From assembly GCA_021108035.1 (NCBI GenBank), contig JAIORQ010000056.1, positions 1 through 64,000 of the forward strand: 64,000 nt of DNA, in the 5' to 3' direction. A program made the position numbers and the translations under genes. Position 1 is the stretch's first letter; every line of letters starts with the position of its first letter. This DNA is from Bacteroidales bacterium (GTDB lineage: Bacteria > Bacteroidota > Bacteroidia > Bacteroidales > JAADGE01). Positions 44,501 through 52,596 of the stretch are shown here, one piece after another. A model generated the notes under the pieces. It was given only the letters and a program-made list of their open reading frames with translations. It was not told where the DNA came from and did not search any database.

Positions 44501-46840
44501 TTATTCTTTTTCAAGTAAAGCCAAAACAACCTTCTCCGCAGTAATCGGCATAGATTTAATGCGAACGCCCGTTGCGTCTTCAACAGCATTTGCAACCATT
44601 GGTGCTGCCGGAAGCATTGTATGTTCACCCACTCCTCTTGCTCCGAAAGGGCCGTCAGGTTGCGGGACTTCAATAATTATCGGAACAATTTTATCAGGGA
44701 TATCTTTTGCTGTCGGGATTTTATAATCAGTAAAGTTTGGATTAAGGAGTTTTCCGTTCTCATCATATCTCATGTCTTCATAAAGTACTGTGGCAAGTCC
44801 TTGCACTAATCCTCCCACAATTTGTCCTTTTACCAGGTCAGGATTCAGAGCTTTTCCGACATCAATTGCTTCAACCGTTTTCAGAACTTTCATTTTACCG
44901 GTTTGTTTATCAATTTCAAGAATTATGGCTGCAGCTCCTACGGTGTAATGAACATTCGGATGGCCTCCTTGTCCTGTTTCCGGATTGGATTTTGCCGTAG
45001 AAAATTCCGGCAAGAAAATCCCGCGTCCGAGAATCGGCCCGCCTTTAAAAGTTCCGTCTTCCATTTGAATTCCGTCAATAACAAAATCTTTTAAAGCTAA
45101 AGCAAAGTTTGGATTTTGAGTTGATTTCACTTTTTCATCTTCCAAATAAAGCGATGAACGAGATAAAAACTTTGTTCTTTCAACAAGGTCAAAAATTTGC
45201 TCTCTTGCATCAATTGCAGCTTTTTTAACAGCATTTCCGCTGCTCCAAGTAACATGTGATGCAACAGTTTGCCATTCATAGGGATTTCTGTCAGTGTCAG
45301 GGTTTTCTGTTCGTATCTTTGATGTAGGTACTTGCAGGATTTCGGCGGCAATTTGAGCCATAACCGTTAAATACCCTTGCCCGATGTCCATACCGGAAAC
45401 CAATAAGTTGATACTTGCATTTTCATTAAATTTTAAAAAACATGAAGATGATGCATTAGGCGGCATTGCGGGAGCTTTCCATAATAATGAAAAACCTTTG
45501 CCGATTACTGTATTCGGATTTGAAGATTTATGTTCTTTATGCCATTCAATTTCTTTTTCAACGGCATCAATAGCTTTAAATAACCCGTTCGGATTCATGT
45601 GTGTTCCGTATGCCGTTTTATCACCTTCTCTGATGGCGTTTATCTTTCTTATTTCAACAGGGTCAATATTAAGATGCTTTGCAATTCGTGTCATGTGAGA
45701 TTCCAATCCAAATAAGAATTCGGAATAACCGAAGCCTCTGTATGCACCTCCGGGCGGAAGATTCGTGTAAACGCAAACAGAGTCAATAGAAACATTGTTA
45801 ATATTATATGGGCCTATTGCCGAAAGGCCTATAGCATTGACGACATTTGCTCCGTATTCGACATAAGCACCGGCATCCCAGAAAAGTTGATGATGAAGTG
45901 CCGTAATTTCTCCGGTTTTTTTAACACCTATCTTTAACTTTGTAATAACACCGAGTCTTTGATAAGTATTATAAAATTCACGTTCTCGATTCCACATTAT
46001 TTTTACGGGGTATCCTTGAACTTTTGTTGCAATTGCTGCAGCCAGAATTTCCATTGTTACACCGGCTTTAGAGCCGAAACCGCCCCCTACATGAGGTGCA
46101 ATAACTCTTACATCATTATGTTTTATTCCCAAAGGTGCTAATGCTTCTGCAAATAAATGTCTTTGTGTATGAGGCGATTGAGAAGATGCCCAAACAGTTA
46201 GTCTGCCGCTTTTATCATATTTTCCGATTGCAACATGATACTCAATTGCACAATGAGAATAACGCGGAACTTCATATGTGTCGTCCAATATGTAATCAGC
46301 TTCTTCAAATCCTTTTTCAACTTCACCTTTACGAATTTTTCTCCAATGAGCGATATTTGTTTTTGCTTTCGGAAAGAACCAAGGCACATGCTCATAGTTT
46401 TCTAAATCTTCATGTATCAAATCAGAACCTTCTTTCACAGATTCCATTTGGTTAAGAACTTTCGGGAGTTCTTCATATTCAACTTTTACAAGTTTGGCGG
46501 CACGTTTTGCAACTTTAGGGTTTCGGGCAACAACTGCGGCAACTTGTTCTCCGATAAATCTGACTCTGTCTTGAGCAAAAATAAATCGGTCTTTCATGTA
46601 AAGCCCAAATTTATACGGGAAATCTTTGCCGGTAATAACTGCGAGAACTTCCGGATGCTTTTCAGCTTCTGAAGTATCAATGTTTTTTATCATTGCATGA
46701 GCGTACGGACTCTCAACAATTTCTGCATATAATAATTCCGGTCCGAAACTAATATCTTCAGTATAAATTGCAGCTCCTGAAACTTTTTCTTTTCCGTCAA
46801 TACGGATTTCAGATTTTCCTATATATTTTAATTCTTTCAT
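44501..46840 (-). CDS. Molybdenum hydroxylase, Mo-binding large subunit (xanthine dehydrogenase family)
   Basis: A 779-residue protein with the full large-subunit architecture: N-terminal hammerhead domain (GKEKVSGAAIYTEDISFGPELLYAEIVESPYAHA), then the Mo-MPT-binding domains with GGGFGSKAGVTMEILAAAIA, PPGGAYRGFGYSEFLFGLESHM, GMDIGQGYLTVMAQIAAEIL and GARGVGEHTMLPAAPMVANAV. The glutamate of VGEHT fits the catalytic Glu. It works with the 2Fe-2S and FAD subunits encoded upstream (48038-48499 and 48689-49576); a BRO/GIY-YIG insertion separates it from them. The substrate (a purine, nicotinate or aromatic CoA-type compound) is not determined. Confidence 0.93.
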   Translation of the reverse strand: MKELKYIGKSEIRIDGKEKVSGAAIYTEDISFGPELLYAEIVESPYAHAMIKNIDTSEAEKHPEVLAVITGKDFPYKFGLYMKDRFIFAQDRVRFIGEQVAAVVARNPKVAKRAAKLVKVEYEELPKVLNQMESVKEGSDLIHEDLENYEHVPWFFPKAKTNIAHWRKIRKGEVEKGFEEADYILDDTYEVPRYSHCAIEYHVAIGKYDKSGRLTVWASSQSPHTQRHLFAEALAPLGIKHNDVRVIAPHVGGGFGSKAGVTMEILAAAIATKVQGYPVKIMWNREREFYNTYQRLGVITKLKIGVKKTGEITALHHQLFWDAGAYVEYGANVVNAIGLSAIGPYNINNVSIDSVCVYTNLPPGGAYRGFGYSEFLFGLESHMTRIAKHLNIDPVEIRKINAIREGDKTAYGTHMNPNGLFKAIDAVEKEIEWHKEHKSSNPNTVIGKGFSLLWKAPAMPPNASSSCFLKFNENASINLLVSGMDIGQGYLTVMAQIAAEILQVPTSKIRTENPDTDRNPYEWQTVASHVTWSSGNAVKKAAIDAREQIFDLVERTKFLSRSSLYLEDEKVKSTQNPNFALALKDFVIDGIQMEDGTFKGGPILGRGIFLPEFSTAKSNPETGQGGHPNVHYTVGAAAIILEIDKQTGKMKVLKTVEAIDVGKALNPDLVKGQIVGGLVQGLATVLYEDMRYDENGKLLNPNFTDYKIPTAKDIPDKIVPIIIEVPQPDGPFGARGVGEHTMLPAAPMVANAVEDATGVRIKSMPITAEKVVLALLEKE

Positions 46841-46892
46841 GTTCTTTATTTAATGCTTCAATGCTTTAATGATATAATGCTTTAATTCTTTA

Positions 46893-47357
46893 TCATTTTG
46901 TATCATTCTTGTCGATTTCTTTATTTTTGTTTTCTAACACTTTTGCATCCGTTGATGAAATAACACCTTTCCCGGTTTTTTCTTCAATTTCTTTGCGAGT
47001 GTTTCCTGCAATTGTTCCTCCTTGATTTGCAATATGTTTGCTCTCATTAAAGGTTTTTGGTTTCTTTTCTTTCGAGATTTCTGTTGTTGTTGCTTCTGTT
47101 CGCCCCGTTAGATAGTTTTTTATTCTATTCTTTACATATCGCTTACCCCAAGATGTTTTTAAATACTTTTCCCTGTGAAGTGCATCTTTTTGAGATAAAC
47201 ATCCTTCAAAATAAATTAGTTTCAATGGTCTTCTATGTTTTGTTGAAGTCACTTTACCATTATTATGTTCTTCTAATCTTCTTTTTAAATCAGATGTATA
47301 ACCTGTGTAAAAGTTATTATCCTTTTTTGATTGTAATATATAAATATAGTATATCAT
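46893..47357 (-). CDS. GIY-YIG nuclease fused to a BRO-family C-terminal tail
   Basis: A 154-residue fusion. Residues 1-81 are a URI-type GIY-YIG domain: YYIYILQSKKDNNFYTGYTSD, Arg26-Arg27 in LKRRLEEHN, Glu63 in ALHREKYLKTSWGKRYVKNRI. Residues 82-85 (YLTG) are encoded by the right inverted repeat of the 284-bp element. Residues 86-154 (TEATTTEISKEKKPKTFNES, ANQGGTIAGNTRKEIEEKTG) belong to the C-terminus of the interrupted BRO gene. The ATG directly follows the BRO stop (TAAATG). It is probably a DNA nuclease; mobility of the gene is inferred. The domain alone is a normal-length single-domain nuclease. Confidence 0.85.
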   Translation of the reverse strand: MIYYIYILQSKKDNNFYTGYTSDLKRRLEEHNNGKVTSTKHRRPLKLIYFEGCLSQKDALHREKYLKTSWGKRYVKNRIKNYLTGRTEATTTEISKEKKPKTFNESKHIANQGGTIAGNTRKEIEEKTGKGVISSTDAKVLENKNKEIDKNDTK

Positions 47358-47386
47358 TTATGCTGTAAGTTTCATATCTAACGGGG
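47103..47386 (-). mobile_element. 284-bp GIY-YIG element with 12-bp terminal inverted repeats
   Basis: CCCCGTTAGATA (47103-47114) and its exact complement TATCTAACGGGG (47375-47386) bracket a segment that contains only the GIY-YIG domain. The sequences on either side are the two halves of a BRO-family gene (NLELVLNM outside the left repeat, TEATTTEISKEKKPKTF outside the right one). No target duplication could be fixed. Confidence 0.75.
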
Positions 47387-48029
47387 TAAACATATTCAAA
47401 ACTAATTCAAGATTTGTCATATTATCCCGAAGATTTTCCTTTTTCAGATTCTTCAATTTTTTATAATCTTTTACTGATAAATCAGTCCAAGCTTTTGTAA
47501 TTTCATCAGTTAATATTGCATATTCTAAACCTTTTTTTACTCCTCTCAAATCCCATTCGTCGGTCAATTCTTTTCTTACTTCAATGCTTTTAAGTCTTTG
47601 GTTAATCCATTTTTTAGAATAACCTTTTTTCAGATATGTTTCCATTGCTCTGTCAAAAGCTTTTTCAGGGTCTTCTGTTTCTTCAATTCTTTCATACCCT
47701 ACTTTTGCTAACCAAACTTTAAAAGGTTCTGCTTTTGGGGAGGGTATGGATTGAATTAGGCGTAAAAGTTGCTCTGTATCAGCAACATCTGTTTTGTAGA
47801 ATTTTCCGTCAGAAGATTGCATTTTCAGTTGGTTACAATTTGTAACCAACTCACTTCCTTCTTTTTTAAGTCTGTTTTTCAATACTTTCCAATAATTATT
47901 GGGATTTTGACTTTCTGTCAATACTCCAACAATATCTACTACTGAAAAATACCATTTTTCTTGCTCTTCATTCCAATGTACCCTTACTTTTTTGTCATTG
48001 AATAGTTTAATAGAGTTTTCTTTTTTCAT
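47358..48029 (-). pseudogene. BRO-family (Bro-N) gene interrupted by the GIY-YIG element
   Basis: The remaining frame encodes 223 residues. The N-terminal Bro-N domain is intact: IKLFNDKKVRVHWNEEQEKWYFSVVDIVGVLTES, WKVLKNRLKKEGSELVTNC, KTDVADTEQLLRLIQSIPSPKAEPFKVWLAKVG. The following helical region (RAMETYLKKGYSKKWINQRLKSIEVRKELT) is also intact. It then stops ten residues into the insertion (FTPLDMKLTA after NLELVLNM), and its natural C-terminus is now part of the GIY-YIG reading frame. BRO proteins are DNA-binding antirepressor-like proteins common in phages and mobile elements. It lies between the Fe-S and Mo subunit genes of a molybdenum hydroxylase, so it is itself an intruder. Confidence 0.8.
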
Positions 48030-48037
48030 TACATTTC

Positions 48038-48499
48038 TTATTTTTTTGCGACTTTTTCAATTGCTTCAATTATTGATTCGTAACCTGTGCATCTGCAAAG
48101 ATTTCCGGCAATGGCTTCTTTTATTTCTTCTTTATTAGGGTGAGGATTTTTATTCAGCAGTTCTGTTGCAGAAATTGTAATCCCGGGTGCACAAAAACCG
48201 CATTGAAATGAGTTATTTTCGATGAATGCTTCTTGTAAAGGTGTTAATCCGTCTTTTGATAAACCCTCAATAGTTGTAATCTCTTGTCCGTCAACTTCAA
48301 TTGCAAGAATTAAACACGAACGGACACTTTTTCCGTTAAGCAAAACTGCACATGTTCCGCAATCGCCTCTTTCACAGCCTGATTTGGGACTTTTAATTCC
48401 GAGTTTATCTCGTAATACATCAAGTAAAACGTCATTTGGTTCAACATAAACATAACGAGTTTCTCCATTAAGGTTTATTGTTATTTTTCTCATATCCAT
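48038..48499 (-). CDS. Molybdenum hydroxylase, 2Fe-2S subunit
   Basis: A 153-residue protein with two Fe-S clusters: plant-type ferredoxin CxxxxCxxC...C (SGCERGDCGTCAVLLNGKSVRSC) and the helical cluster FQCGFCAPG ... GNLCRCTGYESI. This is the small subunit of xanthine dehydrogenase/carbon-monoxide dehydrogenase-type enzymes. It probably passes electrons from the Mo subunit to the FAD subunit. The start may be Met1 or Met3 (MDMRKITINLNG). The gene lies 8 bp upstream of the interrupted BRO gene on the same strand. Confidence 0.94.
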   Translation of the reverse strand: MDMRKITINLNGETRYVYVEPNDVLLDVLRDKLGIKSPKSGCERGDCGTCAVLLNGKSVRSCLILAIEVDGQEITTIEGLSKDGLTPLQEAFIENNSFQCGFCAPGITISATELLNKNPHPNKEEIKEAIAGNLCRCTGYESIIEAIEKVAKK

Positions 48500-48688
48500 A
48501 TTTTATTTTTTTCTTTCAAAATTCTGCGGAATATTTACAAATGCTTTAATGATTTAATGCTATAATGCCTTAACAAGCAGATGTTTAATTTGTTACAAGT
48601 CAAATATAATTGGTATTCATTATTAAAATATATCTTCGTTTTTTTTATTACAGCATTTAAGCATTGTATCATTACAGCATTTATTTTT

Positions 48689-49576
48689 TTACAATATCGG
48701 GTCTGATTTAATTTTTTCACCTGCTGATAGTGCATAGCATTCTTTTAAAGCCCTTTCCAACATTATTTTTGTAATGTGAATTCTGTATTCTTTTGTAGCT
48801 CTGATATCCGTTATCGGAGAAATTTCAGTTGAAATTATTTTTTGTGCTTGCTTAATATTATCTTCTGTAAGCTCTTTTCCGTTTAAGAACAGCTCTGTTT
48901 TTTTTACTCTTTTCGGAATCGGTCCGATTGCACAAACAGCAATTCTGTATTGTTTGTTATCTGTTGCCATAATGCCTAATCCGACTTGTGCAAGGTCTTC
49001 GCCTTTGTATCTTCCCAATTTCTTATAGCAACTTACAGATTTTGTTTCAGGTAAAGTCAAAATGATATGTGTTACGATTTCATTATTTTTTAATGAAGTT
49101 TTTTTAGGGCCGGTAAACCAATCTTCAATATTAATAACACGTTCTTCTTTAAAACTTTTGACATGTATTCTTGTTTCATACAACAATAAAGCGGGAGCGG
49201 AGTCTAAAGACGGTACTGCCGAACAAATATTACCTGCCAAAGTTGCACGATTTCTGATTCCCACAGAAGCAACAGTTGAAGCACCCTCCCAAAGTACACG
49301 AAAATTGGTTTTAATAATTTCAGATTCTTCAATATCGGAGAATGTTACACTTGCACCAATTTTAAGTTCTGTTCCGGTGAATTCAATCTTATTTAAATAA
49401 GGTATAGCTTTAATATCAATAAGAACATCAGGTGTAATAATGTCTTCCTTTAATTGTACCGTAAGGTCAGTACCTCCGGCAATTATTTTTGATTTTCCGG
49501 AGTTTTCATCCAATAATTTTACCGCATCTTCAATGTTCAGAGGCTTAAAATATTCAAAATCGTGAGATATAGGCAT
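48689..49576 (-). CDS. Molybdenum hydroxylase, FAD-binding subunit
   Basis: A 295-residue protein: FEYFKPLNIEDAVKLLDENSGKSKIIAGGTDLTVQLK (FAD-binding start with AGGTDL), ASTVASVGIRNRATLAGNICSAVPSLDSAPALLLYE (second FAD signature), and a C-terminal CO_deh_flav_C-type domain (YKKLGRYKGEDLAQVGLGIM ... ATKEYRIHITKIMLERAL). It carries electrons from the 2Fe-2S subunit to the acceptor. It is the first gene of the three-subunit set; a 189-bp gap with short tandem repeats separates it from the Fe-S subunit gene. Confidence 0.93.
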   Translation of the reverse strand: MPISHDFEYFKPLNIEDAVKLLDENSGKSKIIAGGTDLTVQLKEDIITPDVLIDIKAIPYLNKIEFTGTELKIGASVTFSDIEESEIIKTNFRVLWEGASTVASVGIRNRATLAGNICSAVPSLDSAPALLLYETRIHVKSFKEERVINIEDWFTGPKKTSLKNNEIVTHIILTLPETKSVSCYKKLGRYKGEDLAQVGLGIMATDNKQYRIAVCAIGPIPKRVKKTELFLNGKELTEDNIKQAQKIISTEISPITDIRATKEYRIHITKIMLERALKECYALSAGEKIKSDPIL

Positions 49577-50771: not shown

Positions 50772-52596
50772 TATTGAGTCCACTCCGAAAAGTAATTTAT
50801 AGTATGACAAAAATAATATAATTTTTCATTAAAAATTTGTTTTATCGGCTTTATTTTTTTAATTTAACATCTTGATTAATAAATAATTAACTAATGTTTA
50901 AAAAAACTGACACATCTCAACAAACATCCATGTACAGCGGTGTATATCAGCATCATACAGGCGAAAGTTCAAAACAGTTTGAGGATGAAACAGAATGGCA
51001 TAATATTTTTTATAAGCAAATTGTAAGCCGTATTGACGAAAACATTTTCTCTGTATTATATTCACAGGACAAAGGTTCTCCGAATGCACCGATAAGAACA
51101 TTAATCGGAATGATGATCCTTAAAGAAGGCGAAGGTTACAGTGATGAAAAATTATTCGAAAATTGTCGTTTCAATTTATTAACAAGAAAAGCATTAGGCC
51201 TTGTTAATATTGATGACTCTCTGCCTGTTGAATCTACATATTATCTGTTACGTAAACGTATTTCAGACTATAATAAAGAAACAGGAATTAATCTTTTCGA
51301 CACTTGTTTTAAAAGCATAACGGGAGGGCAAATAATTGATTTTCAAGTCAGCGGAGAAAATATCAGAACCGACAGTAAACTAATCGGCAGTAATATTGCA
51401 TTTATTAGTCGTTATGAGCTTATACACAAGACATTAGTTCTTTTTTATAAACACACTTACAAGGATCAATTTACATTATTATCCGAACAAGACAGAAATA
51501 CATTAAACGAATTTATTAAAGAAAAATCATCAGCCACAGTTTATCGCAGTAATAAACATCAAATTAATGAACGATTGTTAACTCTCGGAAAACTTATTTA
51601 TACCATATTAAATACGGTAAAAGAAAGTAATAACAAACATTATCAAACATTAAAGCAAGTTTTTAATGAACAATATAAAGTTTTAGAGGGTAATAAAATA
51701 GAGATTACTCCCAATAGTGAAATCAGTGCAAAAAGTGTTCAATCTCCGCACGATACAGAATTTGATTTTCGCAGTAAAGACAGCAAGAAAACAAAAGGAT
51801 ACAGCCACAATATTACAGAAACTTGCACACCCGATAATAAGGTAAACTTAATAAGTGATGTTCAAACCGAACCGGCTACACATCCCGATAATGAATTTAC
51901 AATACCTGCAATCAATAACTCGCAAGAAATTTTACATGATAAAATACAAAACTTACATGCAGACGGAGCATATAATAGTACTGCCGGTCAAGAATTTACA
52001 AATTTTGAAAATATAAATTTTTATTTAACGGGTTTTCAAGGTCCGCCGGGCAGATACGATTTAACAATGAAAGATAATGAACTCCGGGTTTTTGATAATA
52101 AAAATAAGACACAGGTAAATGTAATAAAAACAAAGAAAAATAAGTATCGCATAACAACAGAAACCGGTTACAGATATTTTTCGGAAAAAGAAATTGAAAG
52201 TTGTCGTTTAAGAAAACAAGTAGAGCAACTTCCCAAAGCAATAGGAAACAGACGCAATAATGTCGAAGCAACAATTTATCAACTTGCATATCATTTACGA
52301 AAAGATAAAACCAAATACAGGGGTAAGTTTAAAAATAAAATATGGGCAATATTAAGGAGTTTATGGTTGAACTTTGTCCGAATTACAAAATATTTAGTCG
52401 GGAAAAGCAAAAAAGCACAGCAAAATGTAAACCATGCCTTACATTGTAATGTTTTTGTGAACATTATCTATTTTCTTTTAATTTTAACTCAATTAGAATG
52501 CAATAAAAATTACAGATTTGTATTCAGGTAAATTAATAAAAAATATGGCATTCTAAAGGGATTAACTTTTTTGTCTTTTTCGGAGTGGGCTCAATA
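50772..52596 (+). mobile_element. IS1182-family insertion sequence
   Basis: Left end TTGAGTCCACTCCGAAAAGT (50774-50793) and right end CTTTTTCGGAGTGGGCTCAA (52575-52594) form imperfect 20-bp terminal inverted repeats (about two mismatches); TA on both sides extends the symmetry. The single ORF (50894-52531) is an intact transposase. A target duplication could not be fixed beyond possible TA. The element looks complete and lies head-to-head with the cyclase gene. Confidence 0.88.
50894..52531 (+). CDS. IS1182-family transposase
   Basis: A 545-residue DDE transposase. The N-terminal DUF772-type domain reads PIRTLIGMMILKEGEGYSDEKLFENCRFNLLTRKALG. The acidic residues are Asp160 (ENIRTDSKLIGSN), Asp in NLHADGAYNS, and Glu in RRNNVEATIYQLAYHLR. 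The central domain with KTKGYSHNITETCTP and the C-terminal extension are typical of IS1182. No frameshift or internal stop, so it is probably active. Confidence 0.92.
   Translation: MFKKTDTSQQTSMYSGVYQHHTGESSKQFEDETEWHNIFYKQIVSRIDENIFSVLYSQDKGSPNAPIRTLIGMMILKEGEGYSDEKLFENCRFNLLTRKALGLVNIDDSLPVESTYYLLRKRISDYNKETGINLFDTCFKSITGGQIIDFQVSGENIRTDSKLIGSNIAFISRYELIHKTLVLFYKHTYKDQFTLLSEQDRNTLNEFIKEKSSATVYRSNKHQINERLLTLGKLIYTILNTVKESNNKHYQTLKQVFNEQYKVLEGNKIEITPNSEISAKSVQSPHDTEFDFRSKDSKKTKGYSHNITETCTPDNKVNLISDVQTEPATHPDNEFTIPAINNSQEILHDKIQNLHADGAYNSTAGQEFTNFENINFYLTGFQGPPGRYDLTMKDNELRVFDNKNKTQVNVIKTKKNKYRITTETGYRYFSEKEIESCRLRKQVEQLPKAIGNRRNNVEATIYQLAYHLRKDKTKYRGKFKNKIWAILRSLWLNFVRITKYLVGKSKKAQQNVNHALHCNVFVNIIYFLLILTQLECNKNYRFVFR

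Follow-up and report, generated by a model that had tools for sequence, protein, structure and literature searches.

Single-domain GIY-YIG nuclease genes within 13-bp terminal inverted repeats: a probable family of very small mobile elements, one of which splits a Bro-N gene in a Bacteroidales bacterium

In the window, i.e., the whole stretch of 64,000 nucleotides of Bacteroidales DNA that was analysed, a Bro-N gene is split by a short segment encoding a GIY-YIG nuclease. The features are the following:

47101..47388, minus strand: whole element, 288 bp, N-ACCCC...GGGGC-N' (N = T at 47388, N' = G at 47101)
47375..47387, minus strand: left (5') inverted arm ACCCCGTTAGATA, upstream of the nuclease ATG; the BRO N-part reads through it
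47102..47114, minus strand: right (3') inverted arm TATCTAACGGGGC, coding (Y-L-T-G); its last base is C, the usual one being T
47389..47390, minus strand: TT, left half of the target
47099..47100, minus strand: AA, right half of the target
46893..47357, minus strand: 154-aa ORF, GIY-YIG nuclease fused in frame to the C-terminal part of Bro-N
47357-47109, minus strand: nuclease codons 1-83 of the 154-aa ORF
47358..48029, minus strand: split Bro-N gene, N-terminal part (223-aa ORF; PF02498, E = 7e-11)
46893..47100, minus strand: native C-terminal part of Bro-N (..EATTTEISKEKKPKTF..)

The perfect 12-bp repeats CCCCGTTAGATA/TATCTAACGGGG described in an earlier note on this DNA are present at 47103-47114 and 47375-47386. 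The element had been bounded by them at 284 bp; the inverted repeats are real, but the arm conserved in relatives consists of 13 nt (ACCCC../..GGGGY) plus one terminal base per side, thus the element is best drawn at 47101-47388, i.e., 288 bp on the minus strand, both boundaries being set by analogy with the empty site of L144 (see below) and by comparison of BRO codons. The pair CCCCGTTAGATA/TATCTAACGGGG has no other perfect copies in the 4.96-Mb assembly and five one-mismatch copies elsewhere in it, and the genome contains a single copy of the element. As had been claimed, the arms enclose the GIY-YIG domain alone (PF01541, E = 9.3e-18): no transposase lies between the repeats in the window, the GIY-YIG protein being the sole one, and no Rfam intron match was obtained at E<=1 over window positions 46800-48100.

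The split gene was correctly assigned to the BRO type. The upstream 223-aa ORF carries a Bro-N domain; «BRO» here stands for this domain, NCBIfam giving no more than a sub-threshold match to DNA-damage-inducible protein D. This N-part comprises 213 native codons, then FTPLDMKLTA and a TAA located immediately before the nuclease ATG at 47357. The right-hand repeat stays open in frame, again as proposed: since the final base of the arm is C instead of T, there is no nuclease stop codon and the frame continues into the BRO tail, giving the fusion of 154 aa. In the AlphaFold model of this fusion, the blocks of the nuclease have confidences of 88-97, those of the tail 52-77. By eye, the split Bro-N is flanked (window 44501-49576) by genes resembling three xanthine-dehydrogenase-type subunits, all on the minus strand, and looks like a foreign gene within an operon, later itself invaded. 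Two further observations concern the surroundings: a perfect 12-bp inverted repeat with a 1-bp loop within the Bro-N coding region (47827-47851), and a 545-aa transposase-like ORF, IS1182-like by eye (50894-52531).

Eight nuclease queries were used to search 84,980 species genomes; they had been selected for resemblance to the window protein irrespective of their flanks, and L048 and L049 among them have no arms. Among 421 confirmed candidates the best 80 were fetched and one viral contig (L152) was added, i.e., 81 relatives. The arm type ACCC[C/T]GTNNRATA is found on both sides of the GIY-YIG ORF in 76/81 of these relatives (best 80 of 421 plus L152), hence it is not so that relatives are never flanked by the repeat, a possibility raised in the earlier note. 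The five others (L078, L083, L125, L132 and L148, arm score <13) were excluded from the arm, flank and frame counts, while L111 and L131 were kept although their arms differ at five positions. In a consensus-free test, the best inverted repeat beside the ORF scored above the highest of 81 shuffled controls in 67/81. A second sample of 295 genomes of the window's class gave the same picture: besides the window, the matches >120 bits have arms in 6/6 cases, and arms of this sequence are found in 0/17 of the weaker GIY-YIG loci measured (17 of 23 fetched). The strict pattern detects no arms in three more distant relatives from the first sample, taken at the level of the order: L048 (60%), L049 (57%) and L050 (51%).

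The length from ACCC to GGGT ranges from 265 to 374 bp with a median of 286 (n=77, i.e., 76 relatives and the window). According to record titles, the hosts include lineages of Bacteroidota, Ignavibacteriota, Chlorobiota, Balneolota, Cloacimonadota, Verrucomicrobiota, Planctomycetota and Patescibacteria. The records are mainly metagenome assemblies; isolates with the element belong to Niabella, Algoriphagus, Marinilabilia, Psychroflexus, Mesonia, Hanstruepera, Oceanihabitans, Carboxylicivirga and Fodinibius. Among the fetched relatives there are at most three copies per assembly (L104, L121, L136). Carriage by plasmids or phages was considered and rejected: the matches in plasmid (10) and phage (21) records are all <60% identical, and there is one viral contig (L152). 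It must be noted that in one Ignavibacteria assembly two integrase genes (L121 and L136) carry nuclease ORFs 98% identical in DNA with flanks 82% (left) and 92% (right) identical, a pattern as after recent copying within one genome.

The two arms of an element match each other closely: among the 76, there is no mismatch in 43, one in 26, two in 4, three in 1 and five in 2, i.e., at most one in 69/76. The within-element difference is 0.62 of 13 positions on average, compared with 2.65 for permuted partners (lowest of 2000 permutations: 2.20); with one locus per right-arm variant (n=33), the values are 1.03 and 3.48. The variable positions change together. Position 5 is C/C (left/right) in 44 elements, T/T in 24 and unequal in 8; position 8 is T/T in 37, G/G in 27, C/C in 7 and unequal in 5; position 10 is G/G in 48, A/A in 28 and never unequal. 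The right arm is coding and the left arm lies before the ORF, thus protein conservation alone cannot explain this covariation.

Beyond the arms, conservation stops after three bases, with TT on the left in 65/76, AA on the right in 56/76 and both in 55/76. The nuclease stop codon is formed by the last T of the arm and the next two bases in 42/77 elements (TAA 29, TGA 11, TAG 2), so that the right-hand AA is partly a stop-codon signal, yet the copies without ORF (see below) have such flanks too. The junction pair N/N' of the ORF-bearing elements is of wobble type (C.A or T.G) in 51/76 and Watson-Crick in 9/76, the permuted expectations being 28.6 and 27.2; among 36 ORF-less copies, 17 are wobble, 15 Watson-Crick and 4 other. 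Selection for a wobble pair at the junction is therefore no more than a possibility, the signal being strong in the former and weak in the latter.

Placement that spares the host gene fails as a general rule: 47/76 elements split a gene in sense orientation and two in antisense, as judged by eye. The remaining elements either lie before gene starts, e.g., gyrA, rplJ and atpC in Patescibacteria or other bacteria, or gave no clear reading. Open frames of at least 45 aa touching the ends on the element's strand give 56 N-side and 61 C-side pieces for the 76 elements. Pfam detects corresponding families at the two ends: it assigns 23S_rRNA_IVP to 11 N-side and 12 C-side pieces, phage integrase to 6 and 9 (the SAM_4 domain to 9 on the N side), AlbA_2 to 6 with HATPase_c_4 to 8, Bro-N to 6, and PDDEXK_3 to 2 and 4. 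The antisense pieces (34 of 42 searched, one per locus where possible) gave IS91 transposase domains only, with 2 members each, at L150 and L152. Assignment to gene families and to shared sites (48 split genes, 26 sites) relied on inspection by eye, with help from Pfam tallies without member lists; by this reading the same codon recurs across phyla at BRO LNM/L, integrase HTFRH/S and LLGHxV/K, AlbA_2 I/N, GxxExxY ESV/Y and IVP SIM/DNI. Comparison thus indicates insertion mainly in sense orientation, in accessory genes.

Two sites could be compared with uninterrupted alleles. (i) The split integrase of Fodinibius salsisoli (L144) has 12 homologues in the genus (incl. L263), all uninterrupted at the site, two of them being same-genome paralogues and two having an internal stop. 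The nearest one (823/983 aligned bases identical) reads AATGTT-AAAACAACAATG, i.e., AATGTT^AAAAC, and L144 itself reads AATGTT-C[ACCCC..GGGGT]A-AAAACGACAATG. Each of the 11 aligned homologues lacks exactly two bases beyond ACCCC..GGGGT, and TT^AA itself is present in three of them. This comparison implies entry between TT and AA with zero duplication, zero loss and one own base per end; TTY..RAA, favoured first as fixed ends of the element, was replaced by N..N' plus TT^AA after this empty site. (ii) The IVP gene of Algoriphagus marincola (L092) is intact in a congener (99% protein identity), which reads ATGGACAACATTGCAGAAGG where L092 reads ATG-G[ACCC..GGGT]C-GCAGAAGG: nine target bases (codons DNI) are missing from L092, and intact IVP homologues of the genus have D-N-I/V in 18 readable of 19. 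There is no target-site duplication at L144 or L092. The host transposase L222 was searched for a second copy as empty site, and two genomes gave only L222 itself; no close homologue of L097 was found within its genus.

Excision of N[ACCC..GGGT]N' restores the host frame in 31/48 split genes, i.e., 47 relatives and the window (9e-6 against one third, the loci not being independent), and at 15/26 distinct sites (P=0.009); 17/48 loci and the other 11 sites are not restored. Taken together with the empty sites, this means that clean insertion is common, with many exceptions. As a separate observation, the element lies at the start of an epimerase-like gene (VTGGAGF, by eye) in four genera by title (L111, L131, L138, L125), where a second copy of the 5' end of the gene follows the element and the gene is kept whole.

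The BRO site itself has been occupied several times. The empty site had been predicted to join LVLNM directly to EATTTEIS; this was not borne out, the actual sequence being LVLNM-LA-EATTTEIS. All the intact Bro-N homologues fetched (29/29, incl. L022, L026 and L035) have LAE at the site (LNM-LAE) and continue across the junction, as expected for a gene split by insertion in the earlier note. The site is interrupted in the window, in a Chlorobiota MAG (L072), in L073 (the same place as L043) and in a MAG titled Akkermansia muciniphila (L127). An in-frame fusion of nuclease and BRO tail occurs in 4/4 of these split copies, and a fifth, decayed BRO copy (L051) also reads on, with a 132-aa open frame. 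A CTT repeat at L073, considered as a target-site duplication, was rejected: it is explained by two extra bases, as in other BRO copies.

In the Bro-N tree, which is a quick tree with one long branch (L127), the copies of the window, L072 and L073 are scattered among the intact genes, and forcing the three into one clade costs 106.7 log units (AU p=5e-16), whereas their nucleases form one group (SH-aLRT 93). This disagreement points to repeated invasion of the BRO site. One genome (G089) contains both an intact Bro-N, 87% identical to that of the window, and a split Bro-N, 63% identical, which carries a nuclease 83% identical to the window's. Between the window and L072, identity is 88% over the N-part (639 nt), 92% over its last 213 nt, 94% over the nuclease, then 88% over the next 100 nt and 78% over the next 200 nt. 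Such a gradient looks conversion-like, as would be expected if the element had entered through break repair accompanied by co-conversion.

The ends also exist without an ORF. The pattern ACCCYGTNNRAT-N(0-30)-ATYNNACRGGGT, which covers copies up to 54 bp, has 30 copies in 12/198 genomes of the order, the reversed-pattern control having 0. The flanks are TT on the left in 33/36 and AA on the right in 30/36 distinct copies, genomes outside the 198-genome sample being included. In two sets of genomes chosen for the nuclease element, ORF-less copies are present in 3/8 and 3/16. All the 12 palindrome genomes have a GIY-YIG match at E<=0.001, compared with 92/198 overall (P = 7e-5); among the ten genomes that rank highest by nuclease match, three have ORF-less copies (P = 0.016), and nine of the 12 lie outside those ten. 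ORF-less ends thus exist and go along with GIY-YIG genes; we infer that they are non-autonomous derivatives of the element. By eye, ORF-less palindromes of ~32 bp stand on both sides of the nuclease element in L082, with two or three bases between, and ORF-less copies of ~65 bp flank it in L150.

The residues Y4, Y6, G19, R27, H31 and E63 of the nuclease, which we take to be catalytic, are retained in 78-82 of 82 sequences. The nearest solved structures by sequence are UPF0213 proteins (1zg2, 1ywl), then Slx1, and the same holds by fold; the Foldseek match to I-TevI is weak (E = 0.38), and TIGR01453 gives a sub-threshold match for two relatives. Slx1 acts on branched DNA together with Slx4; its place among the nearest solved relatives makes an action of the nuclease on folded arms thinkable, no more. 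On the nuclease tree (83 columns, 47/79 forks open), target family requires 16 changes compared with 32.5 when shuffled and is thus clustered, but phylum, for identical rows, requires 15 changes. The tree thus shows no clear advantage of target over host phylum as the basis of the clustering, and it does not separate descent within phyla from target loyalty.

These comparisons bring out discrete ends, covarying arms, presence or absence at homologous sites and recurrent occupation in unrelated lineages. A single-domain GIY-YIG ORF inside 13-bp terminal inverted repeats is therefore very probably the mark of a real and widespread family of mobile elements, about 270-370 bp in size. As for its spread, homing-type break repair is, with moderate confidence, the main route, a view supported indirectly by (i) the same-site recurrence, (ii) the conflict between gene trees and (iii) the similarity gradient. 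The likeness to a homing endonuclease gene suggested in the earlier note holds by half: these three points agree with it, but the covarying arms and the ORF-less copies fit end recognition of transposon type at least as well. The reading that we somewhat prefer is that of an element resembling intronless homing genes, with terminal inverted repeats and no splicing.

The nuclease would be translated from the mRNA of the host gene, in the window probably by re-initiation at TAA-ATG, and would cut the uninterrupted allele near TT^AA. Repair of the break off the element-bearing copy would then install the element and convert the flanks, as in intronless homing. A stem could form from the inverted ends; these would permit the element to reach, now and then, TTAA-like sites in further genes, and would let ORF-less copies spread. 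In the BRO copies, moreover, the element has lost its stop codon and the nuclease carries the BRO tail.

Several results do not fit this homing reading easily. Homing endonucleases reportedly do not recognise their own mobile DNA (PMC1564403), yet the arms show both conservation and covariation, which argues for such recognition without proving it. Some insertions are not clean, as seen from the 9-nt loss at the IVP site and from the frame, unrestored at 17/48 loci and 11/26 sites. The 83-aa domain has no obvious DNA-binding part. L127 has the same BRO site and the same fusion, but its nuclease lies outside the BRO clade. Lastly, the equally strong clustering by phylum and the armless relatives L048, L049 and L050 also count against it.

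Part of this would be accounted for by a true transposon, a possibility that we regard as doubtful though serious, in which the GIY-YIG protein is a transposase acting on folded ends (cruciform or single-stranded hairpin), with entry at TT^AA and no duplication; same-site recurrence would then result from target preference and gene transfer. Covariation of the arms, the excess of wobble-type junctions in ORF-bearing elements (51/76 for 28.6 expected), the ORF-less palindromes with the same ends and TT/AA flanks (30 in 12/198 genomes, co-occurring with GIY-YIG at P = 7e-5) and the rank of Slx1, nucleases of branched DNA, directly after UPF0213 among solved structures all argue for it. Yet there is one copy in the window genome and a maximum of three in any one assembly, the wobble rule is weak in ORF-less copies (17 wobble, 15 Watson-Crick, 4 other), and recurrence at the same codon in few gene families, together with the conflict between split BRO and nuclease kinship, is as homing predicts. 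In its full form, proposed tentatively, this would be a new class of DNA transposon with a single 83-aa GIY-YIG domain as transposase. The protein would recognise the folded pair of 13-bp ends, cut out or copy the element and insert it at TT^AA without duplication, and it would also act in trans to mobilise palindromes of 31-54 bp; with about 270-300 bp, such elements would rank among the smallest autonomous ones.

It is improbable that the palindromes are pre-existing REP-like sequences moved by something else, the GIY-YIG gene being a passenger captured between two of them. ORF-less palindromes do exist, some directly adjoining a nuclease element (L082, L150, L111, L131), and 9/12 palindrome genomes are outside the ten with the strongest nuclease matches; but the arms hug the ORF, the right arm being coding and the stop codon completed at the junction in 42/77, and GIY-YIG loci of other clades have arms in 0/17 measured. 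Still less probable is an insertion of intron type, taken out of the mRNA with the help of a stem that the arms form and that brings the exons together. Such an insertion would agree with the sense orientation, found nearly everywhere a gene is split, with the often open host halves and with the frame restored in 31/48 after removal of N..N'. Against it stand the lack of a Rfam intron match at E<=1 (window 46800-48100), the 17/48 unrestored frames and, in the BRO lineage, the fusion of the nuclease to the C-part; moreover, the non-coding sequence of the element is too short for a known ribozyme. An intein is excluded, as the N-part terminates at a stop codon and the nuclease is encoded in a frame of its own, and intron and intein were both rejected on these grounds. 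Pure coincidence, in which a Bro-N pseudogene in decay had an inverted repeat next to it and acquired a nuclease gene, i.e., a lone curiosity, agrees with the single copy in the window genome and is practically negligible in view of the arms in 76/81 relatives, their covariation, the shuffled controls and the second sample (0/17 distant loci).

Returning to the homing-like reading, the closest known systems include the segA-segG genes of T4-type phages, which, according to PMC2988022, are GIY-YIG genes without intron or intein, several without their own promoter, co-oriented with their neighbours bar one exception, with a spread consistent with break repair and co-conversion. The element shares with intronless homing genes a nuclease domain from a homing family, motif residues included, intact cognate alleles and repeated invasion of the same site. 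It differs from seg genes in that (i) seg genes lie between genes, whereas the element often splits genes; (ii) it has terminal inverted repeats, insertion at TT^AA without duplication, and ORF-less relatives; (iii) its nuclease is one 83-aa domain, and its hosts are bacterial chromosomes or contigs of several phyla. With intron-encoded GIY-YIG endonucleases of I-TevI type it shares the catalytic domain (by the weak Foldseek match and the sub-threshold TIGR01453); unlike them, it has no intron match, no linker or DNA-binding domain, and the host gene is not restored. Group I/II introns have an intron RNA core, which gave no match in the window segment searched. UPF0213 and Slx1 nucleases are the nearest in sequence and fold, and we know of no UPF0213 or Slx1 genes bounded by inverted repeats.

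Like an insertion sequence or DNA transposon, the element has terminal inverted repeats (76/81) and ORF-less copies with the same ends, but neither a transposase of a known family nor a target-site duplication (L144, L092). MITEs, REP/RAYT and IS200/IS605-type elements have palindromic ORF-less copies, a short T-rich target and no target duplication; in contrast to these, no HUH, DDE or other known transposase is present between the ends of the element. GIY-YIG ORFs have also been reported within rRNA insertions of CPR bacteria, insertions unlike group I or II introns (PMC11270868); the text of this survey does not use the term «inverted repeat», and its authors set GIY-YIG outside homing spread.

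Mobile elements are sorted by their transposase or by a self-splicing shelter; this element has neither, yet it has sharp ends, covarying repeats, empty sites and ORF-less relatives across several phyla. Having no known transposase, it is not an insertion sequence, and since the host gene is not spared it is not a classical homing gene, although a specialist may class it as a variant of intronless homing. Among the titles and abstract openings listed in searches of the open PMC literature, no description of GIY-YIG elements with terminal inverted repeats was found. If the proposal is true, (i) the 288-bp nuclease-only element, which on its sequence looks like one of the smallest self-carrying mobile elements, would push down the size limit for self-carrying DNA elements; (ii) intronless homing would be joined with transposon-type ends; (iii) many genes annotated merely «GIY-YIG nuclease family protein» would acquire a purpose.

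A possible sister group must be mentioned. GIY-YIG matches about 34-51% identical to that of the window (L052-L062, L002-L004) adjoin tRNA genes and have, by eye, a partial tRNA copy on the other side, often with the palindrome CCTGCCTGCCGGCAGGCAGG. These ORFs may represent a sister element that targets tRNA genes and restores the tRNA. A tRNA scan of 14 such loci found a tRNA gene nearby in 10, eight of them being tRNA-Arg. Several genomes contain two or three of these tRNA-side GIY-YIG ORFs in tandem, ~300-400 bp apart.
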